Below are positions 1 through 12,248 of a DNA stretch of 64,000 nt, piece by piece (position 1 is the stretch's first letter; each line of letters begins with the position of its first letter). The position numbers and the translations under genes are program-made. The stretch spans positions 28,650 to 92,649 of the forward strand of contig JAGNZR010000002.1 of the NCBI GenBank assembly GCA_017984315.1. The letters run 5' to 3'. Under the pieces are notes generated by a model. That model was not told the origin of the DNA and searched no databases. It saw only the letters and a list, made by a program, of their open reading frames with translations. The stretch comes from Fusobacteriaceae bacterium. GTDB lineage: Bacteria; Fusobacteriota; Fusobacteriia; Fusobacteriales; Fusobacteriaceae.

Positions 1-2051
1 GGTCTTCTTATATTTAATTTCTCCATCATTACTTCAAATCTCTCTCTATCCTCTGCTTCATCTATTTTATCAGCTGAAGTACCTAAAATTTTTACCCCTC
101 TTTTTTGTAAATCTTTAGCCAGTTTTATAGCTGTTTGTCCACCAAACTGAAGTATTACCCCTTCAGGCCCCTCTTTCTCTATAATATTCATAATATCCTC
201 TGTTACAAGGGGTTCAAAATATAACTTGTCCCCTGTAGAATAGTCTGTTGAAACAGTTTCTGGATTATTGTTGATTATTATACTTTCTATTCCAGCTTTT
301 TTTAAATATTTTATTGCGTGAACAGTGCAATAATCAAACTCTATCCCTTGACCTATTCTTATTGGACCTGATCCTATTACAATGATTTTTCTCTTATTAT
401 TTACCATTACTTCATCAAATTTATCATAAGTTGAGTAAAAATATGAAGTTTTTGCTGCAAACTCTCCTGCACATGTATCAACCATTTTATATACAGGTTT
501 TATTCCATACTCCACTCTTTTTGCATAAATGTCCTCTTCTCCTATCTCCATTAACTCCGCTATCCCTTTGTCTGAGAACCCTTTCTTTTTTAAGTTACGC
601 AGTTTTTTCTCTGTTAACTCTTCAAATGTAGTTCTTTTTAACTCCTCTTGCTGTTCAACTATCCATTGAATTTTTTCCATAAAAAACTTATCTATCCCTG
701 TTATCTTTTGCAATTTTTCTTTTATATAACCTCTTTTTAGCATCTCAGCTACTATAAAGATTCTTTCATCATCAGGTTTTACAACCTGCTCTTTTAGCTC
801 CTCTATTGTAAGCAGTGCCACAGCAGGGTGTTCTAAATTGTATCTACCTATCTCTAATGATCTAATCCCTTTTAAGAAAGCCGCTTCAAAACTGTTTCCT
901 ATTGCCATAATCTCACCAGTTGCCATCATCTTAGTTCCAAGGTGTCTATTAGCTTTTTTAAACTTGTCAAAAGGCCATTTTGGTATTTTTACCACTACAT
1001 AGTCCAATGCTGGTTCAAAACATGCATAACTATTCCCTGTAACTTCATTTATTATTTCATCCAGCTGATACCCTAAAGCTATTTTTGATGCTACTCTTGC
1101 TATTGGATATCCAGTTGCTTTAGAAGCTAATGCTGAAGATCTTGATACTCTTGGATTGATTTCTATAATTGCATATTCAAAAGATTTAGGGTTAAGTGCG
1201 AACTGTACATTACACCCTCCTACTATTCCTATCTCATTAATTATTTTTATTGAAGAGGTTCTTAGCATTTGATACTCTTTATCTGATAAAGTCTGTGATG
1301 GTGCTACTACTATTGAATCTCCTGTATGTACTCCAACTGGATCTATATTTTCCATATTACATATTGTTATACAGTTTCCATTTGAATCCCTAACCACTTC
1401 ATACTCTATCTCTTTCCATCCATAAATTGATTTTTCAACTAAAACTTGTCCAACTCTTGAAAGTGCTAACCCTTTTAGTAAAATCTCTTCCAACTCTTTA
1501 GGGTTATGTGCTATTCCACCACCAGTTCCCCCCAGTGTATATGCAGGTCTTATTACTACAGGATATCCCATTTTGCTTGCAACAGTATAACCATCTTCAA
1601 GTTTATCTACTATATAACTCTCAATTGTAGGCTCACCTATTTTATTCATTGCATCTCTAAAAAGCTCTCTGTCTTCCCCTCTTTTTATTGATTCAATAGA
1701 AGTTCCTATAACCCTTACATTGTATTTTTCTAAAACCCCTTTATCATGAAGCTCTACTGCTAAGTTAAGAGCTGTTTGTCCACCCATCCCTGCAAGTATT
1801 GAATCAGGTCTCTCTTTCTCTATTATTTTTTCAATATACTCCAGTGTAATTGGCTCTAAATAAATTCTATCTGCAACAGCTGTATCTGTCATTATTGATG
1901 CAGGGTTTGAGTTTACTAAAACAACCTCTATCCCCTCTTTTTTTAAAGTCTCACAAGCCTGGGTTCCTGAATAGTCAAACTCTGCTGCCTGCCCTATTAT
2001 TATCGGTCCTGATCCTATTATTAAGCATTTCTTTATATTTTTATCTAACAT
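1..2051 (-). CDS. carB: Carbamoyl-phosphate synthase large subunit (partial, C-terminus missing)
   Basis: The gene makes carbamoyl phosphate from bicarbonate, ATP and ammonia delivered by CarA, for pyrimidine and arginine synthesis. About 683 codons are visible of a protein normally near 1,070. Translation of the minus strand gives an N-terminus with [20 protein letters not shown], the ATP-grasp stretch [12 protein letters not shown], and [20 protein letters not shown]. The second synthetase half then begins with [15 protein letters not shown]. The window edge cuts inside this second half. The ATG overlaps the carA stop by one base (TAATG), so the two are translationally coupled. Family assignment is certain; the missing end is beyond the window. 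Confidence 0.97.
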
Positions 2052-3118
2052 TATTTTCTTCCCCCTTTAATAGTCTCTAAAAAATCATCAAAAAGATAGT
2101 TTGAATCTTGAGGTCCTGGCCAAGCTTCAGGGTGATATTGCACACACATTATGTTTAGCTCTTTACTTCTCATCCCCTCTATTGAATTATCGTTTATATT
2201 TATGTGGGTAACTTCCATCTTTTCAGGCATTTTATCTACAACATACCCGTGATTCTGTGAAGTTATATATATTTTATTACGAGTAAGATCCTTCACTGGG
2301 TGATTTCCCCCTCTATGACCATACTTTAATTTTTTTGTGCTTCCATCTAACGCCCAAGCCAGTAGCTGATGTCCTAAACAGATTGCTATTATCGGTTTTA
2401 CTCCTAAAAGTTTCTTTATCTCGTTTATTACTCCTGTAAGCTCTGCAGGATCTCCAGGTCCGTTAGATAAAAATACTGCATCTACATTATGTTTTAAAAT
2501 CTCTTCAGCTGTTACATCCCATGGAAAAACTACCATAGAACAGTTTCTCGCTTTAAAATTTCTTAAAATATTTCTTTTTATTCCAAAATCCACTATACCT
2601 ATTTTAAATTGTGGGTTTTCTACATTTATTTCATAAATTTTTTTTGTACTTACTATAGAAACAGCATCAGTATTGCTAAATTTATCAAATCTCTCTTTTA
2701 TCTCTTTTTGTGTTAAATCTTTATCTGTTATAATAGACTTCATAGATCCATTTTCTCTTATTATTTTTGTTAACTCTCTTGTATCTAACCCTTTTATTCC
2801 AACAACACCATGTTGTTTCAAGAACCCTTCTACTGTCATTTCACATCTGAAATTATTAGGCAACTTTGCTAACTCCTTCACTATTAAAGCTTTCACTTTT
2901 ACACCATCTGATTCCATGTCATCTAAATTTATTCCGTAATTCCCAATTTGTGGATATGTCAAAACAACTGATTGACCATAATAAGATGGATCTGTTAGAA
3001 GCTCTTGATAACCAGTCATCCCTGTATTAAACACCAGCTCCCCAACACTCTCTTTTAAACTTCCAAAAAGTTTTCCTTCAAAAACCATCCCATTCTCCAA
3101 AATAAGTTTACCTTTCAT
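2051..3118 (-). CDS. carA: Carbamoyl-phosphate synthase small subunit (glutamine amidotransferase)
   Basis: CarA hydrolyses glutamine and channels ammonia to CarB. The N-terminal CPSase small-subunit domain ([10 protein letters not shown], near residues 30-40) is followed by a class I glutamine amidotransferase domain. That domain has the nucleophile Cys in AICLGHQ (about residue 247) and the His/Glu pair in [10 protein letters not shown] (about 329/331). Its length of 355 is normal. Two ATGs are adjacent; the second (3118) sits four bases after AGGAGG, while the first (3121) is almost on top of it, so 3118 is preferred. It is preceded by a terminator-like hairpin and a leader ORF that may regulate carAB by pyrimidine supply. 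Confidence 0.96.
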
Positions 3119-3139
3119 CATTCCTCCTCGATTTTATCT

Positions 3140-3170
3140 AAAAAAAAAGGTATAGTCAAATGACTATACC
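3140..3170 (-). terminator. Intrinsic terminator/attenuator in the carA leader
   Basis: A perfect 10-bp inverted repeat (GGTATAGTCA at 3149-3158 and its complement at 3161-3170, two-base loop) is followed on the minus strand by nine U residues. It lies between the leader ORF and carA, about 20 bases before the carA ribosome binding site. The last base of the leader ORF stop codon (UAG, 3172-3170) is the first base of the 5' arm, so a ribosome at the stop would cover that arm. This geometry suggests a conditional attenuator and not a simple end-of-gene terminator; that role is an inference. Confidence 0.8.
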
Positions 3171-3385
3171 TAAAATAAATAATTATAAAATTTAAATGAA
3201 TTAATTGATAAGACACTTCTTCCATTATCGGATTTAATATCTTTAATAAATAAATTAAATCTAAAACCTAATAATTTATATATAAAATTCACTTTTGATG
3301 ATATTTTAATTTTAAAAATAGAAAATGTAGATAGTGCAGACAAATTTTTAATTTTTAATTTTAGCTTTCTTAATTTATCTAGCAT
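3170..3385 (-). CDS. Leader ORF upstream of carAB, 71 aa, possible attenuation leader peptide
   Basis: This short ORF has an excellent ribosome binding site (AGGAGG, five to six bases before ATG) and a good upstream promoter. It ends with the residues NYLF and a UAG that overlaps the carA attenuator hairpin. The product is basic, rich in K, L, F, N, S and I, and I recognise no domain. The last 25 or so transcribed bases before the hairpin are dominated by U and A, as needed for UTP-sensitive RNA polymerase pausing. By analogy with E. coli pyrL-pyrBI, it is probably a leader peptide whose translation prevents termination when UTP is low. It could instead be an ordinary small protein of unknown function. 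Confidence 0.6.
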   Translation of the reverse strand: MLDKLRKLKLKIKNLSALSTFSIFKIKISSKVNFIYKLLGFRFNLFIKDIKSDNGRSVLSINSFKFYNYLF

Positions 3386-3417
3386 TTTATTCCTCCTATT
3401 TTTTTCATCCTTTAGTT

Positions 3418-3445
3418 ATTATACACTTTTTATTAAAAATAGCAA
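3418..3445 (-). promoter_or_regulatory. Sigma-70-type promoter for the carA leader and carAB
   Basis: On the minus strand TTGCTA (3445-3440) and TATAAT (3423-3418) are separated by 16 bases, and the -10 box is preceded by GTG, giving a partly extended -10. Transcription would start near 3410, giving a leader RNA of roughly 290 bases before carA. That RNA would contain the 71-codon ORF and the attenuator hairpin. Confidence 0.6.
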
Positions 3446-4702: not shown

Positions 4703-6244
4703 CTATTTTTTTATTTTCTTTAATACGTCAACTACTGAACCATCTCTGTATTGTACTACTGCTACAATTTTATCTTCAAATTCGATATCTTTTGCTTTTC
4801 CTGTCATTTTATCTGCAATAGCTTTTAACTCTTCCATTGTTTTTATAGGTAAATTTGAATCTTTAAATCTCTCTAATAGATCTTTTCTTAATGGATTAAT
4901 TGCTATCCCTCTTTCAGTTACTAAAATATCTACTGTCTCTCCTGGAGTAGTTACTGTTGTAACTCTGTCTTTAATAACAGAGATTCTTGCATTAACTAAT
5001 TGAGAAACTATAACGCAGCATTTTGAACCAGCAGCAGTGTCAGCATGTCCTCCTGATCCTCCCATAATTACTCCGTCAGAACCAGTTGTAACATTTACAT
5101 TGAAGTCTGTATCAATCTCTGTTGCTCCTAGGATAACAACATCTAAATTATTAACTACTGCTCCTTTATTGTTTGCATTAGCATACATAGATGCTGACAT
5201 AGTTATATGCCCTTTATTTTCTTTTGCAGATTTTATAGCATCTAAATCAAAACACTGTACATCAAAAAGTTTTCTGAATAACCCCTCTTTATACATATCA
5301 ACTATATAACCAGTTATTCCTCCTGAAGCAAAAGAACCTACTATCTCTTTCTCTTTCATCAGTGATTTAAGTTCTGATGCAACTGCTAAGGAGATTCCCC
5401 CTGCACCTGTTTGAAAACTCATTTCATTTTTTAAATACCCTGATTGTTCAATAAATTTAGTTGTAAGTCCTGCTATTTTTAAACCAATTGGATCTTTTGT
5501 AATCTGTGTAGTTCCTGATACAATCCCTTTCGGATCTCCTATTGCATCTACAACTAAAACATAATCTATATTTGTCTGATCAATCTCTATTGTTTCATTT
5601 GGGTAAGCTACTAAATTATCTGTTATGGCAATAACAACATTAGCCCATTGTGCATCTGAGTGTGCATAACCCATTGCTCCACAAGCTGACTTTCCTTCAA
5701 TTCCATTTGTATTTCCATATTCATCTGAAGTTGGAGCAGCTAAGAAAGCAAAATCAATAGTTACTTCTCCAGTTTCTAATATTCTTGCTCTTCCACCATG
5801 TGTGTGCATAACTACTGGCTTTGCCATTTTACCCTCTGATATAGTTTTTGCCACTGGTCCAGAGATATATGCTGAATATATTTGAGTTACTGTTCCATCT
5901 TCTATTAATGGCACTAACATTTTATGACATGGAAATATTGAAGAAGCAAATATTCTGATATCTTTATACCCTCTTTTTGCTATCTCTCCCATAACCATAG
6001 GTAAAATAAAATCTCCATTTCTTAAATGATGGTGAAAAGATATTGTCATTCCATTTTTTAATTCTAATTTATCTAATAAAGAGTTCAAATCTTTATGTAA
6101 TTTACTTTCACCTGGTAAAACTGCTTTAAATGTTGAATTTTTTTTATGAATTCCAACTTTATTATTTAAAAATCCATTGTAATGAATAACTTCTCCATAC
6201 CCATCTATATAATCAGGAACTTCTCTTCCTAAAATATTTTTCAT
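4703..6244 (-). CDS. citF: Citrate/citramalate lyase alpha subunit (acyl-ACP transferase)
   Basis: The alpha subunit exchanges acetyl for the incoming hydroxy-acid on the acyl-carrier subunit, giving the citryl- or citramalyl-ACP thioester. The protein is a full-length CitF of 513 residues from MKNILGREVPDY, with the family sequences FHHHLRNGD near the N-terminus and GSGGHADTAAGSKC toward the C-terminus. I place the start at 6244, behind AGAGGTG, because the longer frame needs a TTG without a site. It is the last gene of glmS-L-E-mal-citD-E-F. No citC, citX or citG is present in the window. The operon context suggests that the substrate is citramalate. Confidence 0.9.
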   Translation of the reverse strand: MKNILGREVPDYIDGYGEVIHYNGFLNNKVGIHKKNSTFKAVLPGESKLHKDLNSLLDKLELKNGMTISFHHHLRNGDFILPMVMGEIAKRGYKDIRIFASSIFPCHKMLVPLIEDGTVTQIYSAYISGPVAKTISEGKMAKPVVMHTHGGRARILETGEVTIDFAFLAAPTSDEYGNTNGIEGKSACGAMGYAHSDAQWANVVIAITDNLVAYPNETIEIDQTNIDYVLVVDAIGDPKGIVSGTTQITKDPIGLKIAGLTTKFIEQSGYLKNEMSFQTGAGGISLAVASELKSLMKEKEIVGSFASGGITGYIVDMYKEGLFRKLFDVQCFDLDAIKSAKENKGHITMSASMYANANNKGAVVNNLDVVILGATEIDTDFNVNVTTGSDGVIMGGSGGHADTAAGSKCCVIVSQLVNARISVIKDRVTTVTTPGETVDILVTERGIAINPLRKDLLERFKDSNLPIKTMEELKAIADKMTGKAKDIEFEDKIVAVVQYRDGSVVDVLKKIKK

Positions 6245-6269
6245 TATTATAAGCACCTCTCTTTTTTTA

Positions 6270-7142
6270 TTAATCAATAAGACCAGTTAATCTTGCTATA
6301 TTTAAAGTGTGTATTGCACGGTTGATTATTGGTAAATCTACCATTTTTCCATCTAGTGAAAATACACCAAGACCATTCTTTTCAGCTTCTTCTTTAGCTT
6401 CCATAACTCTTGTGGCATGTCTAATTTCTTGAGCTGTTGGGGCAAATGAAGTATGAATAGTGTCAATCTGTCTAGGGTTAATTGCTAACTTACCTGTAAA
6501 CCCTAACATTTTAGCCTTAGCTGTATCCATTGCAAGTCCTACATAATCATTAGTATCAGTAAATGGAGTATCTATTGCATCTATTTTTAAAGCTTTACAT
6601 GCATTTACAACTCTTCCTCTTGCATAAGAAAGTTCTTCTGAATCATAAGTTCTTTTAACACCTAAATCTGCCGCTAAGTCCTCTCCACCTAATAATACAG
6701 ATATGCATCTTGGTGACATCTGGATTGTCTCAAATACTTTTTCAACACCCATTGTTGTTTCAACTAGTGCATGGATTTTAATTGAACCTTGTTCAAATCC
6801 TTCCTCTTTTTCTATTTTAGTTAAAGCTTCATCTAAAAATTTCATATCCTCAGGTACTGCTTTAGGTAAAAGGATAGCATCAGGCTTTAATCTTCCCATC
6901 ATATCTATATCAGCTAATGCATAAGGTGTAGATAATGGATTTATTCTAATAACTACTTCTGTATCTCCATAATCTCTAGTTTTCATAGCCTGTCTTATTA
7001 AATATCTAGCTGAATCTTTTTCAGATAATGCAACAGCATCTTCTAAATCAAATATTACCGAATCTGCACCAAAAATATCCGCTGTTTGAAGCATCCCTGG
7101 GTTATTTCCAGGCATAAATAACATAGTTCTTCTTAATTCCAT
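6270..7142 (-). CDS. citE: Citrate/citramalate lyase beta subunit (citryl/citramalyl-ACP lyase)
   Basis: The beta subunit cleaves the acyl-ACP: oxaloacetate would leave from citryl-ACP, or pyruvate from citramalyl-ACP. The 290-residue HpcH/HpaI-type TIM barrel shows RRTMLFMPGNNPGM at the N-terminus, the metal-site region FDLEDAV, RINP, LLPKAV, and an ALVET acidic motif near residue 155. It is typical in length. The ATG overlaps the citD stop by one base. Sequence alone does not tell citrate from citramalate specificity; position directly after methylaspartate ammonia-lyase and citD favours citramalate. Confidence 0.93.
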   Translation of the reverse strand: MELRRTMLFMPGNNPGMLQTADIFGADSVIFDLEDAVALSEKDSARYLIRQAMKTRDYGDTEVVIRINPLSTPYALADIDMMGRLKPDAILLPKAVPEDMKFLDEALTKIEKEEGFEQGSIKIHALVETTMGVEKVFETIQMSPRCISVLLGGEDLAADLGVKRTYDSEELSYARGRVVNACKALKIDAIDTPFTDTNDYVGLAMDTAKAKMLGFTGKLAINPRQIDTIHTSFAPTAQEIRHATRVMEAKEEAEKNGLGVFSLDGKMVDLPIINRAIHTLNIARLTGLID

Positions 7143-7408
7143 TAATTTATACCCCCTCTTCTTACTGCTCCTTCAACTCTTGCTTTTATTGTGTAATTTA
7201 ATGCACCTTTATCTTGAGCATTTACTTTTACAGAGGTTACACCTAACTCTTTAAGAGTTTCTTCTATTACTGCTCTTATTTCATCACCAAACTGCTTAGT
7301 AACACTACTTTCTAATTCAATCTCTATTCCGTCATTTGATGGAGTCAAAACTATATATATATCATTAGATTCTAAAGTTCCACATTTAGAACTATTTTTT
7401 ATTGTCAT
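7142..7408 (-). CDS. citD: Citrate/citramalate lyase gamma subunit (acyl carrier protein)
   Basis: This 88-residue acyl carrier bears the 2'-(5''-phosphoribosyl)-3'-dephospho-CoA prosthetic group. The attachment serine is visible as Ser14 in CGTLESND, matching the known Ser14 of the family. It begins the citDEF gene set and overlaps citE by one base. The start is supported by GAGGGG about 7 bases upstream. The prosthetic-group enzymes CitX and CitG and the ligase CitC are not encoded nearby and must lie elsewhere if the lyase is active. Confidence 0.93.
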   Translation of the reverse strand: MTIKNSSKCGTLESNDIYIVLTPSNDGIEIELESSVTKQFGDEIRAVIEETLKELGVTSVKVNAQDKGALNYTIKARVEGAVRRGGIN

Positions 7409-7448
7409 ATACTACACCCCTCTTTACATTAATATATACTCAAAAGTA

Positions 7449-7476
7449 AGAGGTTGACCTTAAAAAGTCAACCTCT
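7449..7476 (-). other. Intercistronic hairpin between mal and citD
   Basis: A 10-bp perfect inverted repeat (AGAGGTTGAC, 7449-7458, with GTCAACCTCT, 7467-7476) has an eight-base loop. On the minus strand it is followed by UUACUUUUGAG, only a weak U-tract, so it may act as a leaky terminator or a 3'-end stabiliser for the upstream message. The plus-strand side has TTTT, but no plus-strand gene ends here. Confidence 0.6.
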
Positions 7477-7524
7477 TTTTAAGCTTTATAAAGTTTTAGC
7501 AAACTTACTTAGCCGTTATAATTT

Positions 7525-8769
7525 TTATTTTTTCTTTCTGTTAACTAATGCCATTACTCTGCTCATTTCGTTTCCAACGATCATGATACCCTCGTCAACA
7601 CCCATTCCTGGTTTAGCTAATACTTGTAAAGCTCCACAAGCCATTGCTATGTTTGTTGTAACTTCTGCAGATCTGTTAGTTTCGTTACAAGTTCCACCTG
7701 AATATGAACCGATTCCTACTTTGTTACAGTAGATGATAGCGTCAGCTATGTTGTTAACTCCTCCTAAATCTGGAGTTTTAATTTGAACTACGTGTCCAGC
7801 TTTTGCATCAGCAAAGGCTTTGATATCCTCTAAAGTATTGCACCATTCGTCAGCAACTAACTCAACAGCCATACCTCTTCTATCTACTTCTGCAGTTAAA
7901 GCTGATAAAGCATCGATTTGCCCTTGTAAACTTCCAACATCCATTGGTCCTTCTATTCTTAATTTGTATGGTTTAGCTGCTTCAACTAAAGTTCCGATAT
8001 AGTCAGCCATTACCATTGTATCACAGTTGAAAGCTTGTCCAATTGTTCCATATACATCAATATGCATAATTGGGTTATAGTTAGAATCTGATCTTAATGA
8101 AGTGATTCTATCTCTTAACCAGATTACATAATCTCTTAAGATTGATCCATCTTTACCTAATTTAGTTTCAACATGGTTTATTAATGCGTGTGGTAAAACG
8201 TCAGCTTGCTTGATGATCATTTTATCAGCGTTTAATTTTCTGTCATCTCCAGATTGAGTGAATATTGGTCTTCTAGAAATTTCTACTCCTGGAGCATACT
8301 CTTTATTGATAACCTCAGCCATTGTACATTTGTTAACTTTTGAAGCTGCATCTAATATAGCTTGAGTTATTCCGTATCTGATAGCTGTATGTAATCTTTT
8401 ACCGTTTATAGTCATTTTATCAAACTCTTCAGCTAATGCTTTGAAAGATGAAACATCTCTTCCAATTAATTTTGGAGCGATATCTTTTTCGATAACTGGG
8501 ATAAAATCAGCAGCTAAGAATAATGGATCTCTTCCTCCCGCACCTGAGTATTGAACTGCAGCACAGTCTCCGTAAGCTACTTGTCCATCTTCTAATATGA
8601 TCATAACAGAGATTGATTCTCCTGTTTGTCTGATAGATGTAAATCCTTCAGTTAAAGGTTTCCCGATATAAGCCATTCCATCATGCCCTGCTCCAGCTTT
8701 TATAGCAGCCTGGTCATCAAAATAAAATCCTGTTCTTCCTGCTGAACAAACGATATCAACTATTTTCAT
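7525..8769 (-). CDS. mal: Methylaspartate ammonia-lyase
   Basis: The enzyme eliminates ammonia from (2S,3S)-3-methylaspartate to give mesaconate, the second step of the methylaspartate route of glutamate fermentation. The 414-residue protein belongs to the enolase superfamily. Every known catalytic residue can be placed at its usual number: His194 (VLPHALIN), Asp238, Glu273 and Asp307 as metal ligands, and Lys331 as the base in QIKTPDLGG. It lies between glmE and citD, and hairpins flank it on both sides. It starts at ATG 8769 behind GGGAG. Confidence 0.97.
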   Translation of the reverse strand: MKIVDIVCSAGRTGFYFDDQAAIKAGAGHDGMAYIGKPLTEGFTSIRQTGESISVMIILEDGQVAYGDCAAVQYSGAGGRDPLFLAADFIPVIEKDIAPKLIGRDVSSFKALAEEFDKMTINGKRLHTAIRYGITQAILDAASKVNKCTMAEVINKEYAPGVEISRRPIFTQSGDDRKLNADKMIIKQADVLPHALINHVETKLGKDGSILRDYVIWLRDRITSLRSDSNYNPIMHIDVYGTIGQAFNCDTMVMADYIGTLVEAAKPYKLRIEGPMDVGSLQGQIDALSALTAEVDRRGMAVELVADEWCNTLEDIKAFADAKAGHVVQIKTPDLGGVNNIADAIIYCNKVGIGSYSGGTCNETNRSAEVTTNIAMACGALQVLAKPGMGVDEGIMIVGNEMSRVMALVNRKKK

Positions 8770-8816
8770 TTTTTACTCTCCCTTTAAATTAAAATTTTTA
8801 TTTTTTAAACTTAGTG

Positions 8817-8844
8817 CATAGCATGAGAACACTTTCATGCTATG
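8817..8844 (-). other. Intercistronic hairpin between glmE and mal
   Basis: A perfect 10-bp inverted repeat (CATAGCATGA, 8817-8826, with TCATGCTATG, 8835-8844) has an eight-base loop and no following U-run on the minus strand. It is probably an RNA-stability or processing element within the operon, not a terminator. The function is inferred. Confidence 0.55.
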
Positions 8845-8876
8845 ACTACAGTTTTACTTACCTATCTTAATATTAA

Positions 8877-10334
8877 TTATTTTCCTGCAGGTCTTCCGAT
8901 TAAGTTTCCTTTTCCTACTGCAAATATATCATCAACAGTCATTTGGAATCCTAACTCTCTCTCTTCATATTTTGCTCTTACTTCTAATTTAGAAGTGTTG
9001 AACGCTTTTACGTCATCAGAGAATGGAACGTTTCCGAACTCTAAGAATCTGATTTTTCCTTCATTATCTCTAGCTGGTAACATTTTTCCAGCGTTAAATC
9101 TTGATGGTGCAAATGGAATATCCATTACTCCTTGTTCAAAAGCTTTAACGATTCCTACTGCCCAGTCTCCATTTCCTAATTCAAGAACTTTATCTAAGAT
9201 TTGCTTAGTTTCTTTTTTGATTTGTGCCATTTCATCTATAACTTCTACAGAGTGTGGTAATCTTTGACCTTTTAATAAGTTTAATACCATTTTAGTTGCT
9301 CTAATACCCATAGCATTAGCTTCTTTTGTTGGTACACCTATTGCTTCATGAGGAGTTTTAACTATAACTTTTGTTGCTCCTGCTAAAGCTGCAGCTGATG
9401 CTCCGTTAGAAATTACTCCGAAAGCTTTAGCTTCATCTTCAGGGAATCCTCCCATCCATTGGTGGAATACAGTTGTGATTATCATATTTTTGTATCCATA
9501 TTGTGCACAGTACTCTTCAGCTTGCTCAAGCATAGCTCTTACTGCAGCAACGTCTTGTACTAAGTTACCACATTGTCCGTATCCTAAAGTTATATTTTTA
9601 ACTCCTTGCTCAGCAGCTAATAAACACTCTAAAATTTGAACTGCGTTTGACATTGATGGTGGAACTAAAGTTCCTGTTAATGGTCCAAATGGTTCTCTAT
9701 TGATAGTTACTCCGTGCTCTTCATACCATCCAACTAGTCTATCGTTATATTGCCAGTCTCTGATTGTTTGCTCAAGAGAAACTGATTTAGCGTAAGGGAT
9801 ATTATAAGAGATTCCTCCCCCTTCATTTGAAGTAAATCCTGCAGCTAACATGATTTCTGATAATAATCTAGCATCTGGAGTTCCGTGTCTTAATTGTAAA
9901 GGTAAGTTAACTGATTCTACTACCTCTCTACATCCAGCTACCCCATGGTTAACACCTGGGAATCCGTTTAATAAAGATCTTCCTGCTTTTTTAGATTCTT
10001 GAATTCCTAATTCACAATTTTCATATTTGTTTTGTCTTGTATATGAATCTATTGTAGATGGTAATAAATCTGCTCCACCTTGCTCATCTAAGAAGTTTAA
10101 TAACTCTATATGTTGTTCAACTAAAGCAACTCCTGCTCTTGGTTGTGCTAAAGTTATCCCTTTGTTTTTAGCATCTACTAATTTTTTTGCAAAGTTTTTG
10201 TGATCTGGTAAAGCTTTATGATATGCAACTGCCTCTTCTAGATTAACATCTTTTCCTGTAGGCCACTGTTTTAGAACCTCTTCTCTAACTTTAAAAAACT
10301 CTTCTTCAGTCCATTTTGTGAATTTAAGTTTCAT
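8877..10334 (-). CDS. glmE: Glutamate mutase epsilon (catalytic) subunit
   Basis: GlmE, with GlmS and adenosylcobalamin, rearranges L-glutamate to (2S,3S)-3-methylaspartate. The protein has the expected 485 residues and shows [13 protein letters not shown] in the barrel, [15 protein letters not shown] and [17 protein letters not shown], all characteristic of MutE/GlmE. It is preceded by AAGGAGG and follows glmL after about 90 bases. Codon use is like its neighbours. The family call is firm. Confidence 0.97.
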
Positions 10335-10424
10335 ATTTTTATTTCCTCCTTAAAAATGAATATAATTCTATTGACTATATTTCAATTAACCCTTAATTTA
10401 ATTAATAAATCTCTTTCAAAATAT

Positions 10425-11828
10425 TTAAACTAAATATTTTTTCATCACTCTTACAGCTAAATCTGGATAATCCTGTGCTAAAAGTCCCATTGCTGATAAA
10501 ATATATGTTTTATCAACTAAAAACTTAGGATTTACCGGTTTTAGATGAACTGGATTTTCCTGATTAAAATTTCCAGCTTTTAAAATATTATTTGGATTTT
10601 CACTATGAACGATTACACCACCAGTTCCTATAACACATGGTGTATCTAGCAAATCCTTTCCTACTTGGTGAAACATAGTCCCCATAGGAGTATATAAACA
10701 TTCTAATATTCCACAATGACGTTCCATTGCTAACTCTGTAGCTACCATAGCCATAGCTTCATCAAAAGCCTTATCTTCAGCCGTTTCAGGAACCATTTTT
10801 ATATTATCGTGTCTCTTTTCACAATGTTTTCTTATATCTAAACCTTTATACTCATCTCTTAAATAAGTTTTTACTTTTTTTGTACTAGAAGCTTCTAATA
10901 GTGCTATTGCCGAGTATCTCATTCCAAGATCCCCTTCTACAGTTCTTTTTGAAACTGGTTCTTCTAACCCTTTTAGTATCACTCCAGGTTTTGTAGGTTC
11001 ACCTTTTGCTATAGAATGAACATCTGTTGTTGCTCCCCCTATATCTATTATGATTAAATCCCCTATACCATCCTCTAAATCTGTTCCTTTAGATAAAACT
11101 TCTGCTGCTTTTAAAACTGCTGCAGGAGTGGGCATAAGTATCCCTGTTGTAAACTCTTCAGCTTTCTTCATACCTTTAGCCTCAACAATTTTTTCCATAA
11201 AAACTTGTCTTATAGCTTCTCTTGCAGGCTCTACATTTAACTTATTCAATACTGGCATAACGTTTTCTGTTACTTTATAATAAATATTTTTTGCTTTAAA
11301 TAATTCTTCAACTTCATCTACTGCTGATTTGTTTCCTGCCATTATAACCGGAACTTTCAGTTCATACTCAGCTATCAATTTTGCATTATGAATTATGCAC
11401 TCTTTATTTCCACCATCTGTTCCACCAGCTAAAAGGATTATATCTACATTAGATTTTTTAATCTCTTCTAACTCGTGATGATTTAATTCATATGCATAAG
11501 TTTTTATAACTCTTGCTCCTGCACCTAATGCTGCTTTTTTTGCTGCATCAGCTGTCAGTTCTGGAACAAGTCCTAATGCCATCATTTTTAGTCCACCTGC
11601 AGCTGAAGAACAAGCTGTTTTTCTAACAAATTTTACGTTACTTAAATCTATTTTCTCACTTATATCTTGTTTTAACTTATTAAAGGCTTCTTCAAAACCT
11701 ATCATAACATCACTTTCAACAGTTGTAATAGCTTTTGCAGTAGCTAAAATCGTTTCCTCTTTTAAATCAATTGCAGTTAGTTTTGTATAAGTACTTCCAA
11801 AATCAATAGTTAGATAAACTTCTTTCAT
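10425..11828 (-). CDS. glmL: Glutamate mutase-associated MutL protein (reactivating ATPase-like)
   Basis: This ASKHA-fold protein of 467 residues carries phosphate-binding motifs DFGSTYTKLTA at the N-terminus and DIGGATTDVHS near residue 265. GlmL/MutL lies between the two mutase subunits in glutamate-fermenting clostridia and fusobacteria. It is thought to act as a chaperone or reactivating factor for the B12 enzyme; this role is inferred in the literature and not shown here. It begins six bases after glmS, indicating tight coupling. Confidence 0.93.
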   Translation of the reverse strand: MKEVYLTIDFGSTYTKLTAIDLKEETILATAKAITTVESDVMIGFEEAFNKLKQDISEKIDLSNVKFVRKTACSSAAGGLKMMALGLVPELTADAAKKAALGAGARVIKTYAYELNHHELEEIKKSNVDIILLAGGTDGGNKECIIHNAKLIAEYELKVPVIMAGNKSAVDEVEELFKAKNIYYKVTENVMPVLNKLNVEPAREAIRQVFMEKIVEAKGMKKAEEFTTGILMPTPAAVLKAAEVLSKGTDLEDGIGDLIIIDIGGATTDVHSIAKGEPTKPGVILKGLEEPVSKRTVEGDLGMRYSAIALLEASSTKKVKTYLRDEYKGLDIRKHCEKRHDNIKMVPETAEDKAFDEAMAMVATELAMERHCGILECLYTPMGTMFHQVGKDLLDTPCVIGTGGVIVHSENPNNILKAGNFNQENPVHLKPVNPKFLVDKTYILSAMGLLAQDYPDLAVRVMKKYLV

Positions 11829-11834
11829 AATCCA

Positions 11835-12248
11835 TTACATTCCTAAATCTTTTTTTAGATCTTCTGTTGTTAACTCAATAGGAGTTCCTGGTCTGTATAC
11901 TCTATCGAATCCCATAGCTTTAAATCTAGCTTCTACATGATCCCAATCTTGTTTTCCAACAACTATATTTCCACCAACATAAAGTACGATATCCTTTAAA
12001 CCAGCTTCGTTACATTTTTCTCTCATTCCTGCACAGTCTAATTCTCCGTGTCCGTAAAGAGATGATACTATTATAGCATCTGCATTTGTCTCTTTAGCTG
12101 CAGCTATAAATTCAGCTTGCGGCGATAAAACTCCTACATTTACTACTTCAAATCCATTTGACTCCAAAACATGGTTGATAATTTTGTTTCCAACAGCATG
12201 ACAGTCTGAACCGATAACTCCGATTACAACTTTTTTACCATTTTTCAT
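11835..12248 (-). CDS. glmS: Glutamate mutase sigma (B12-binding) subunit
   Basis: GlmS is the small subunit that binds adenosylcobalamin base-off/His-on. The 137-residue protein has the D-x-H-x-x-G cobalamin motif at Asp15, His17 and Gly20 (GSDCHAVG), then [11 protein letters not shown] and YVGGNI, as in other GlmS/MutS proteins. It is the first gene of the operon and has AGGAGG eight to nine bases before the ATG. The upstream 400-base intergenic region should hold its promoter; no cobalamin riboswitch was seen there. It should not be confused with glucosamine-6-phosphate synthase, which shares the symbol. Confidence 0.97.

Follow-up and report, generated by a model that had tools for sequence, protein, structure and literature searches.

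A putative UTP-sensing transcription attenuator of the pyrBI type upstream of carA in Fusobacteriaceae

In the 64,000-nucleotide (nt) stretch of a Fusobacteriaceae genome analysed here (assembly GCA_017984315.1, contig JAGNZR010000002.1, positions 28,650 to 92,649; "the window" denotes this whole stretch), the gene carA, encoding the small subunit of carbamoyl-phosphate synthase, is preceded by a leader which, judged from its sequence, is very probably a ribosome-dependent transcription attenuator sensing uridine triphosphate (UTP), of the type known from pyrBI of Escherichia coli. Literature searches, which did not cover subscription papers, returned no description of such an attenuator in fusobacteria, in agreement with the initial annotation of this DNA, and it is likely new for this group. 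The elements of the leader follow each other on the minus strand in the order promoter (3445-3418), AGGAGG, ATG (3385), 71 codons, TAG, hairpin, nine U residues, carA Shine-Dalgarno sequence and carA:

3418..3445, minus strand: sigma-70-type promoter TTGCTA-16-TATAAT, 10/12 match to the consensus
3392..3397, minus strand: Shine-Dalgarno sequence AGGAGG of the leader open reading frame (ORF), 6 nt upstream of ATG 3385
3170..3385, minus strand: leader ORF of 71 codons, ATG 3385, stop TAG 3172-3170; Pfam, NCBIfam, PHROGs and relatives contain no homologue
3172..3231, minus strand: U-rich final part of the leader ORF (60 nt, 47% U), proposed zone of UTP-dependent pausing
3148..3171, minus strand: terminator hairpin AGGTATAGTC-ATTT-GACTATACCT, 10 base pairs (bp), loop ATTT, -13.4 kcal/mol
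3140..3148, minus strand: nine-U run after the hairpin, its first U being the last stem base
3123..3128, minus strand: carA Shine-Dalgarno sequence AGGAGG
2051..3121, minus strand: carA, carbamoyl-phosphate synthase small subunit, start at 3121 or 3118 (Pfam CPSase_sm_chain and GATase)

The initial annotation had listed the same parts, and we found the promoter, the strong AGGAGG and the leader ORF (3397-3392 and 3385-3170), the perfect 10-bp hairpin, the nine U residues and the carA ribosome binding site as described, with the reservation that 10/12 promoter matches also arise by chance in the AT-rich surroundings of 3445..3418. The U/A-rich stretch is present as well, modest here and clearer in relatives. 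The overlap of stop codon and hairpin is real, but two bases (the final AG of TAG) sit within the stem and not one, as had been stated. The hairpin lies 26-29 nt from the likely carA ATG. One terminator-like site was seen in the carA leader region, against 0.1 expected from shuffles. Four other terminators preceding genes in the window have 37-40% U before them, compared to 47% at the carA leader, which was the sole qualifying leader in a scan of the whole 64 kb.

In the pyrBI leader pyrL, abundant UTP leads to fast transcription and termination, while low UTP causes pausing and the coupled ribosome blocks the hairpin (PMC10135430); tight coupling is required across pyrL (PMC5021804). At carA of the window, RNA polymerase would start near 3411 and a ribosome would enter the leader ORF at once. 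With plentiful UTP the polymerase would quickly clear the U-rich end and outpace the ribosome, the hairpin would form and transcription would stop before carA. With scarce UTP the polymerase would pause in the U-tracts, allowing the ribosome to arrive at the stop codon, which lies at the base of the hairpin. There the ribosome would mask the 5' arm with its footprint, no terminator would form and carAB would be transcribed (carB is the next gene after carA, beyond the window). Since the footprint of a ribosome at a stop codon extends as much as 12 nt beyond that codon (PMC4833913), a stop inside the hairpin would suffice for this masking. The leader peptide would have no function of its own.

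Stronger evidence than that of the hairpin alone comes from relatives. Regions upstream of carA were gathered from genomes of the family and from contigs of named genomes (the closest named relatives of the window's genome are Fusobacteriaceae, Cetobacterium and Fusobacterium), regions upstream of pyrB likewise, and one detector was used for all. In 53 non-redundant leaders upstream of carA and pyrB, from 12 Fusobacteriaceae genera and neighbours, an ORF of 25-71 codons with its own Shine-Dalgarno sequence extends to or into an intrinsic terminator. Counted from the first base of the terminator, the leader stops range from 6 nt before it to 61 nt after it, with 47 of the 53 between -6 and +27 nt from the hairpin start and the other six past the hairpin; these six resemble pyrL, whose stop, measured the same way, is at +47. 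From terminator end to gene there are 13-45 nt in 49/53 leaders. When the sequence upstream of the hairpin was shuffled with dinucleotides kept (400 shuffles each, 23 genus-level representatives), the shuffles predicted 0.03/23 sequences following the strict rule, compared to 21/23 observed. A promoter match of 10/12 or higher stands before 40 of the 53 leaders vs 6% of shuffles, and the distance from the end of its -10 box to the leader ATG or other start is 22-47 nt in all but one of these 40. The device was also found in another family of the same order, before two pyrB genes, and before carA of a further genus (g21). The carA genes of Fusobacteriaceae thus retain the leader ORF, its U-rich end and the terminator while the peptide drifts; a conserved ORF ending at a terminator with a drifting peptide is what the initial annotation had expected of such an attenuator. 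One relative (G006) has two carA copies of the leader-bearing type (G006:C1:1031548-1032609 and 1112066-1113127), and a hairpin with U run stands before both.

A second line of evidence concerns the bases before the hairpin. Their U content (mean 56%, vs 33% in the first 45 nt of the ORF) was higher in 53/53 leaders (Wilcoxon p = 2e-10), and the rise toward the hairpin is seen in 22/22 genus means; the last 60 nt of 1,408 ORFs of G006 average 29% U. The leaders are also rich in Phe, which accounts for 24% of the last 20 leader residues, with at least two Phe in each leader, so that amino-acid attenuation of the trp or pheA type could be considered, in which termination is prevented by an alternative hairpin when a ribosome is arrested at codons for Phe (or Leu, Ile, Tyr). 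But the U-tracts are independent of the frame: TTT occurs 231, 169 and 210 times in the three frames and TTTT 89, 103 and 123 times, the latter favouring the other two frames. In addition, synonymous third bases before the hairpin show a ratio of 187 T : 105 A vs 79 : 101 at the ORF start (p = 2.5e-5). Because of these two properties, selection seems to act on U itself and not on Phe. A stall well upstream would moreover leave the hairpin free to form. Pairing of the 5' terminator arm with upstream sequence was no better than in shuffles (mean z score +0.36), and a trp-like antiterminator was therefore rejected. Finally, the targets are carA and pyrB, while carA genes of the arginine type have no such device. 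We consider amino-acid attenuation very improbable; U gradient and missing antiterminator pairing would fit sensing via polymerase pausing.

The device is also specific for genes of pyrimidine synthesis. In the 1.6 Mb of G006, 162 intrinsic terminators precede a gene, and 14 of them have an ORF reaching them. Several of the 14 look by eye like true small genes (ribosomal proteins L34 and L32, rubredoxin). A U-rich sequence was seen at only three of them, those of carA and pyrB and a third that proved to be a glycine riboswitch ahead of a sodium:alanine symporter and was for this reason rejected as an attenuator. Furthermore, six carA genes of a divergent type (L143-L146, L149, L150), with 47-49% identity over their length, were compared. 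No leader was called at five, and at the sixth (L146) an ORF meets a weak hairpin (-7.8 kcal/mol) and reads as ordinary coding sequence. One of the six, examined with its neighbours, belongs to an arginine-type operon, carA-carB-argB-argD, without leader. In another genus (g12; L217, L218) pyrB follows close behind carAB and has no leader of its own.

A PyrR protein above cut-off was present in only 3/61 genomes (G009, G021, G029), all of the genus g8, and absent from the other 58, including the 78%-complete assembly of the window. The PyrR RNA site (RF00515) also matches in these three genomes, in G009 just below the gathering score, and the two carA genes of this genus that were examined (L147, L148) are without the leader device. 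As pyrB carries the device, arginine-type carA genes have no convincing one and PyrR is confined to g8, the proposal of the initial annotation that carAB is controlled as pyrBI is supported by comparison and pathway specificity. The best reading is that, in a lineage in which PyrR is mostly missing, the device would act as the switch of a pyrimidine regulon.

Alternatively, the RNA itself might be a switch bound by a protein or ligand (a PyrR site or a novel riboswitch), the ORF being incidental. A feature of this kind could account for the terminator hairpins of pyrB, which are much alike in several genera. No Rfam match was obtained for the leader even at an expect value (E) of up to 5, so that a riboswitch or PyrR site was rejected; together with the distribution of PyrR and with the fact that the geometry of ORF and terminator is what is conserved, this makes an RNA switch a distant prospect. 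The pyrB hairpin is nearly identical across several genera (GGAATAGNARTTAC...GTARTTNCTATTCC; L187, L190, L193, L195, L169, L211, L215), a likeness exceeding what a terminator should need.

The leader ORF might also be an independent gene for a small (membrane) protein with its own terminator, carA being transcribed from a promoter of its own. Many leaders have a positively charged N-terminus and a hydrophobic tail, and within genera there is weak purifying selection: the ratio of nonsynonymous to synonymous substitution (dN/dS) of the leader ORFs is 0.16-0.81, and third codon positions are the most variable in 8/9 within-genus groups. Both values indicate that the leader frames are probably translated and under mild coding constraint. 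Nevertheless, the peptide is not kept between genera and was not found in any library. The window leader peptide had no match in Pfam, NCBIfam or PHROGs and nothing significant in 60 relatives (best E 0.005, in one genome and not at carA), and three other leader peptides had no NCBIfam match; a conserved small protein was rejected on these grounds. By inspection, leader peptides are unlike each other between genera and even between carA and pyrB of one genome. The space between hairpin and gene given above is too short for a promoter, which was rejected at this place also for carA of the window, and a promoter-like match over the hairpin (3159..3131) would start transcription inside the carA Shine-Dalgarno sequence. 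A separate small gene thus has hardly any chance of being correct, and the sequence of the leader peptide, drifting between genera and mildly constrained within them, is apparently unimportant.

Some observations weigh against the proposed UTP-sensing attenuator. In the genus g11, carA has neither leader nor hairpin, and the strict ORF rule made no call for a Cetobacterium relative (G057) and for one of the two G006 carA copies. The U bias of the window leader itself (47% in the 60 nt before the hairpin) is modest. In the assembly of the window (Fusobacteriaceae, 1.47 Mb, 78% complete) pyrB was not found. Every leader has 2-9 Phe among its last 20 residues, which formally leaves a slim chance to Phe sensing.

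With E. coli pyrBI (Roland 1988; Turnbough and Switzer 2008, as cited in PMC5021804 and PMC10135430) the fusobacterial leaders have in common a translated leader ORF reaching a terminator, a U-requiring stretch, a hairpin with U run and a short distance to the first structural gene. The target pyrB is shared, and carAB is a target in the fusobacterial device, too. They differ in that the leaders are not homologous to pyrL and belong to a different phylum; they are assigned to the pyrBI kind because of their mechanism and anatomy and not because of common descent. Subjected to the same detector, E. coli pyrL shows a hairpin at -50..-30, a stop 47 nt past the hairpin start and 28% U in 60 nt, whereas the fusobacterial stop is usually in or at the hairpin and the U-richness is stronger and spans the 60 nt.

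E. coli carAB encodes the same enzyme and is also pyrimidine-controlled, but by two promoters, ArgR, PepA, PyrH and UTP-dependent reiterative initiation without a leader attenuator (PMC6245113); that E. coli carAB is not under this attenuator had been stated in the initial annotation. Reiterative initiation was rejected for the window, as the sequence at the likely start, AACTAAAG downstream of the -10 box, contains no U run. PyrR-dependent attenuation (RF00515) likewise exerts pyrimidine control by premature termination, but requires PyrR and its RNA site, neither of which was found here and which occur among the sampled Fusobacteriaceae only in the genus g8. The beta-proteobacterial carA motif stands directly before carA as well; it is an extended imperfect hairpin in Polynucleobacter and a riboswitch candidate, and a leader ORF with terminator was not described for it (PMC8632094).

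Among non-fusobacterial carA loci, 22/66 have an ORF that is preceded by a Shine-Dalgarno sequence and leads into a strong terminator. These Clostridium leaders are less U-rich (27-48% U), and PyrR was present in all 14 such genomes tested; they were set aside as a separate case. Their ORFs have about 30 codons (L050, L055-L059, L062, L070, L072, L077, L081, L082, L105, L106) and in most cases end 25-30 nt into a terminator that is both strong and conserved (AAGGATAGTA...TATCCTTTT). Six of the Clostridium carA leaders were scanned and gave no RF00515 match.

On balance, we slightly favour an origin of ribosome-coupled UTP attenuation independent of the enterobacterial pyrBI system, with an ancestral Fusobacteriaceae pyrimidine regulon (carAB and pyrB) that was exchanged for PyrR in one genus; this would imply tight transcription-translation coupling in the phylum. 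If the carA leader works as proposed, the textbook mechanism of E. coli pyrBI would reach another phylum and carAB, Fusobacteriaceae would possess a pyrimidine regulon without repressor, and dozens of naturally varying terminators that depend on coupling would be available. As the mechanism needs a ribosome close behind the polymerase, coupling would become testable in these bacteria, in which it has, to our knowledge, hardly been studied. The carA and pyrB leaders, differing in sequence and following the same rule, would separate the requirements of the mechanism from what drifts.

The carB gene of this genome (L165:9266-12001, minus strand), located directly beyond the window, has 911 codons where 1068 would be expected; in place of residues 685-874 of a relative's protein there are, in frame, 33 unrelated residues, which is either an assembly error or a real deletion. 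Near carA, the minus strand of the window (4703-12248) carries genes of the citrate lyase alpha and beta types as well as genes for methylaspartate ammonia-lyase and for methylaspartate (glutamate) mutase E, S and GlmL. This gene set corresponds to a methylaspartate route of glutamate fermentation.
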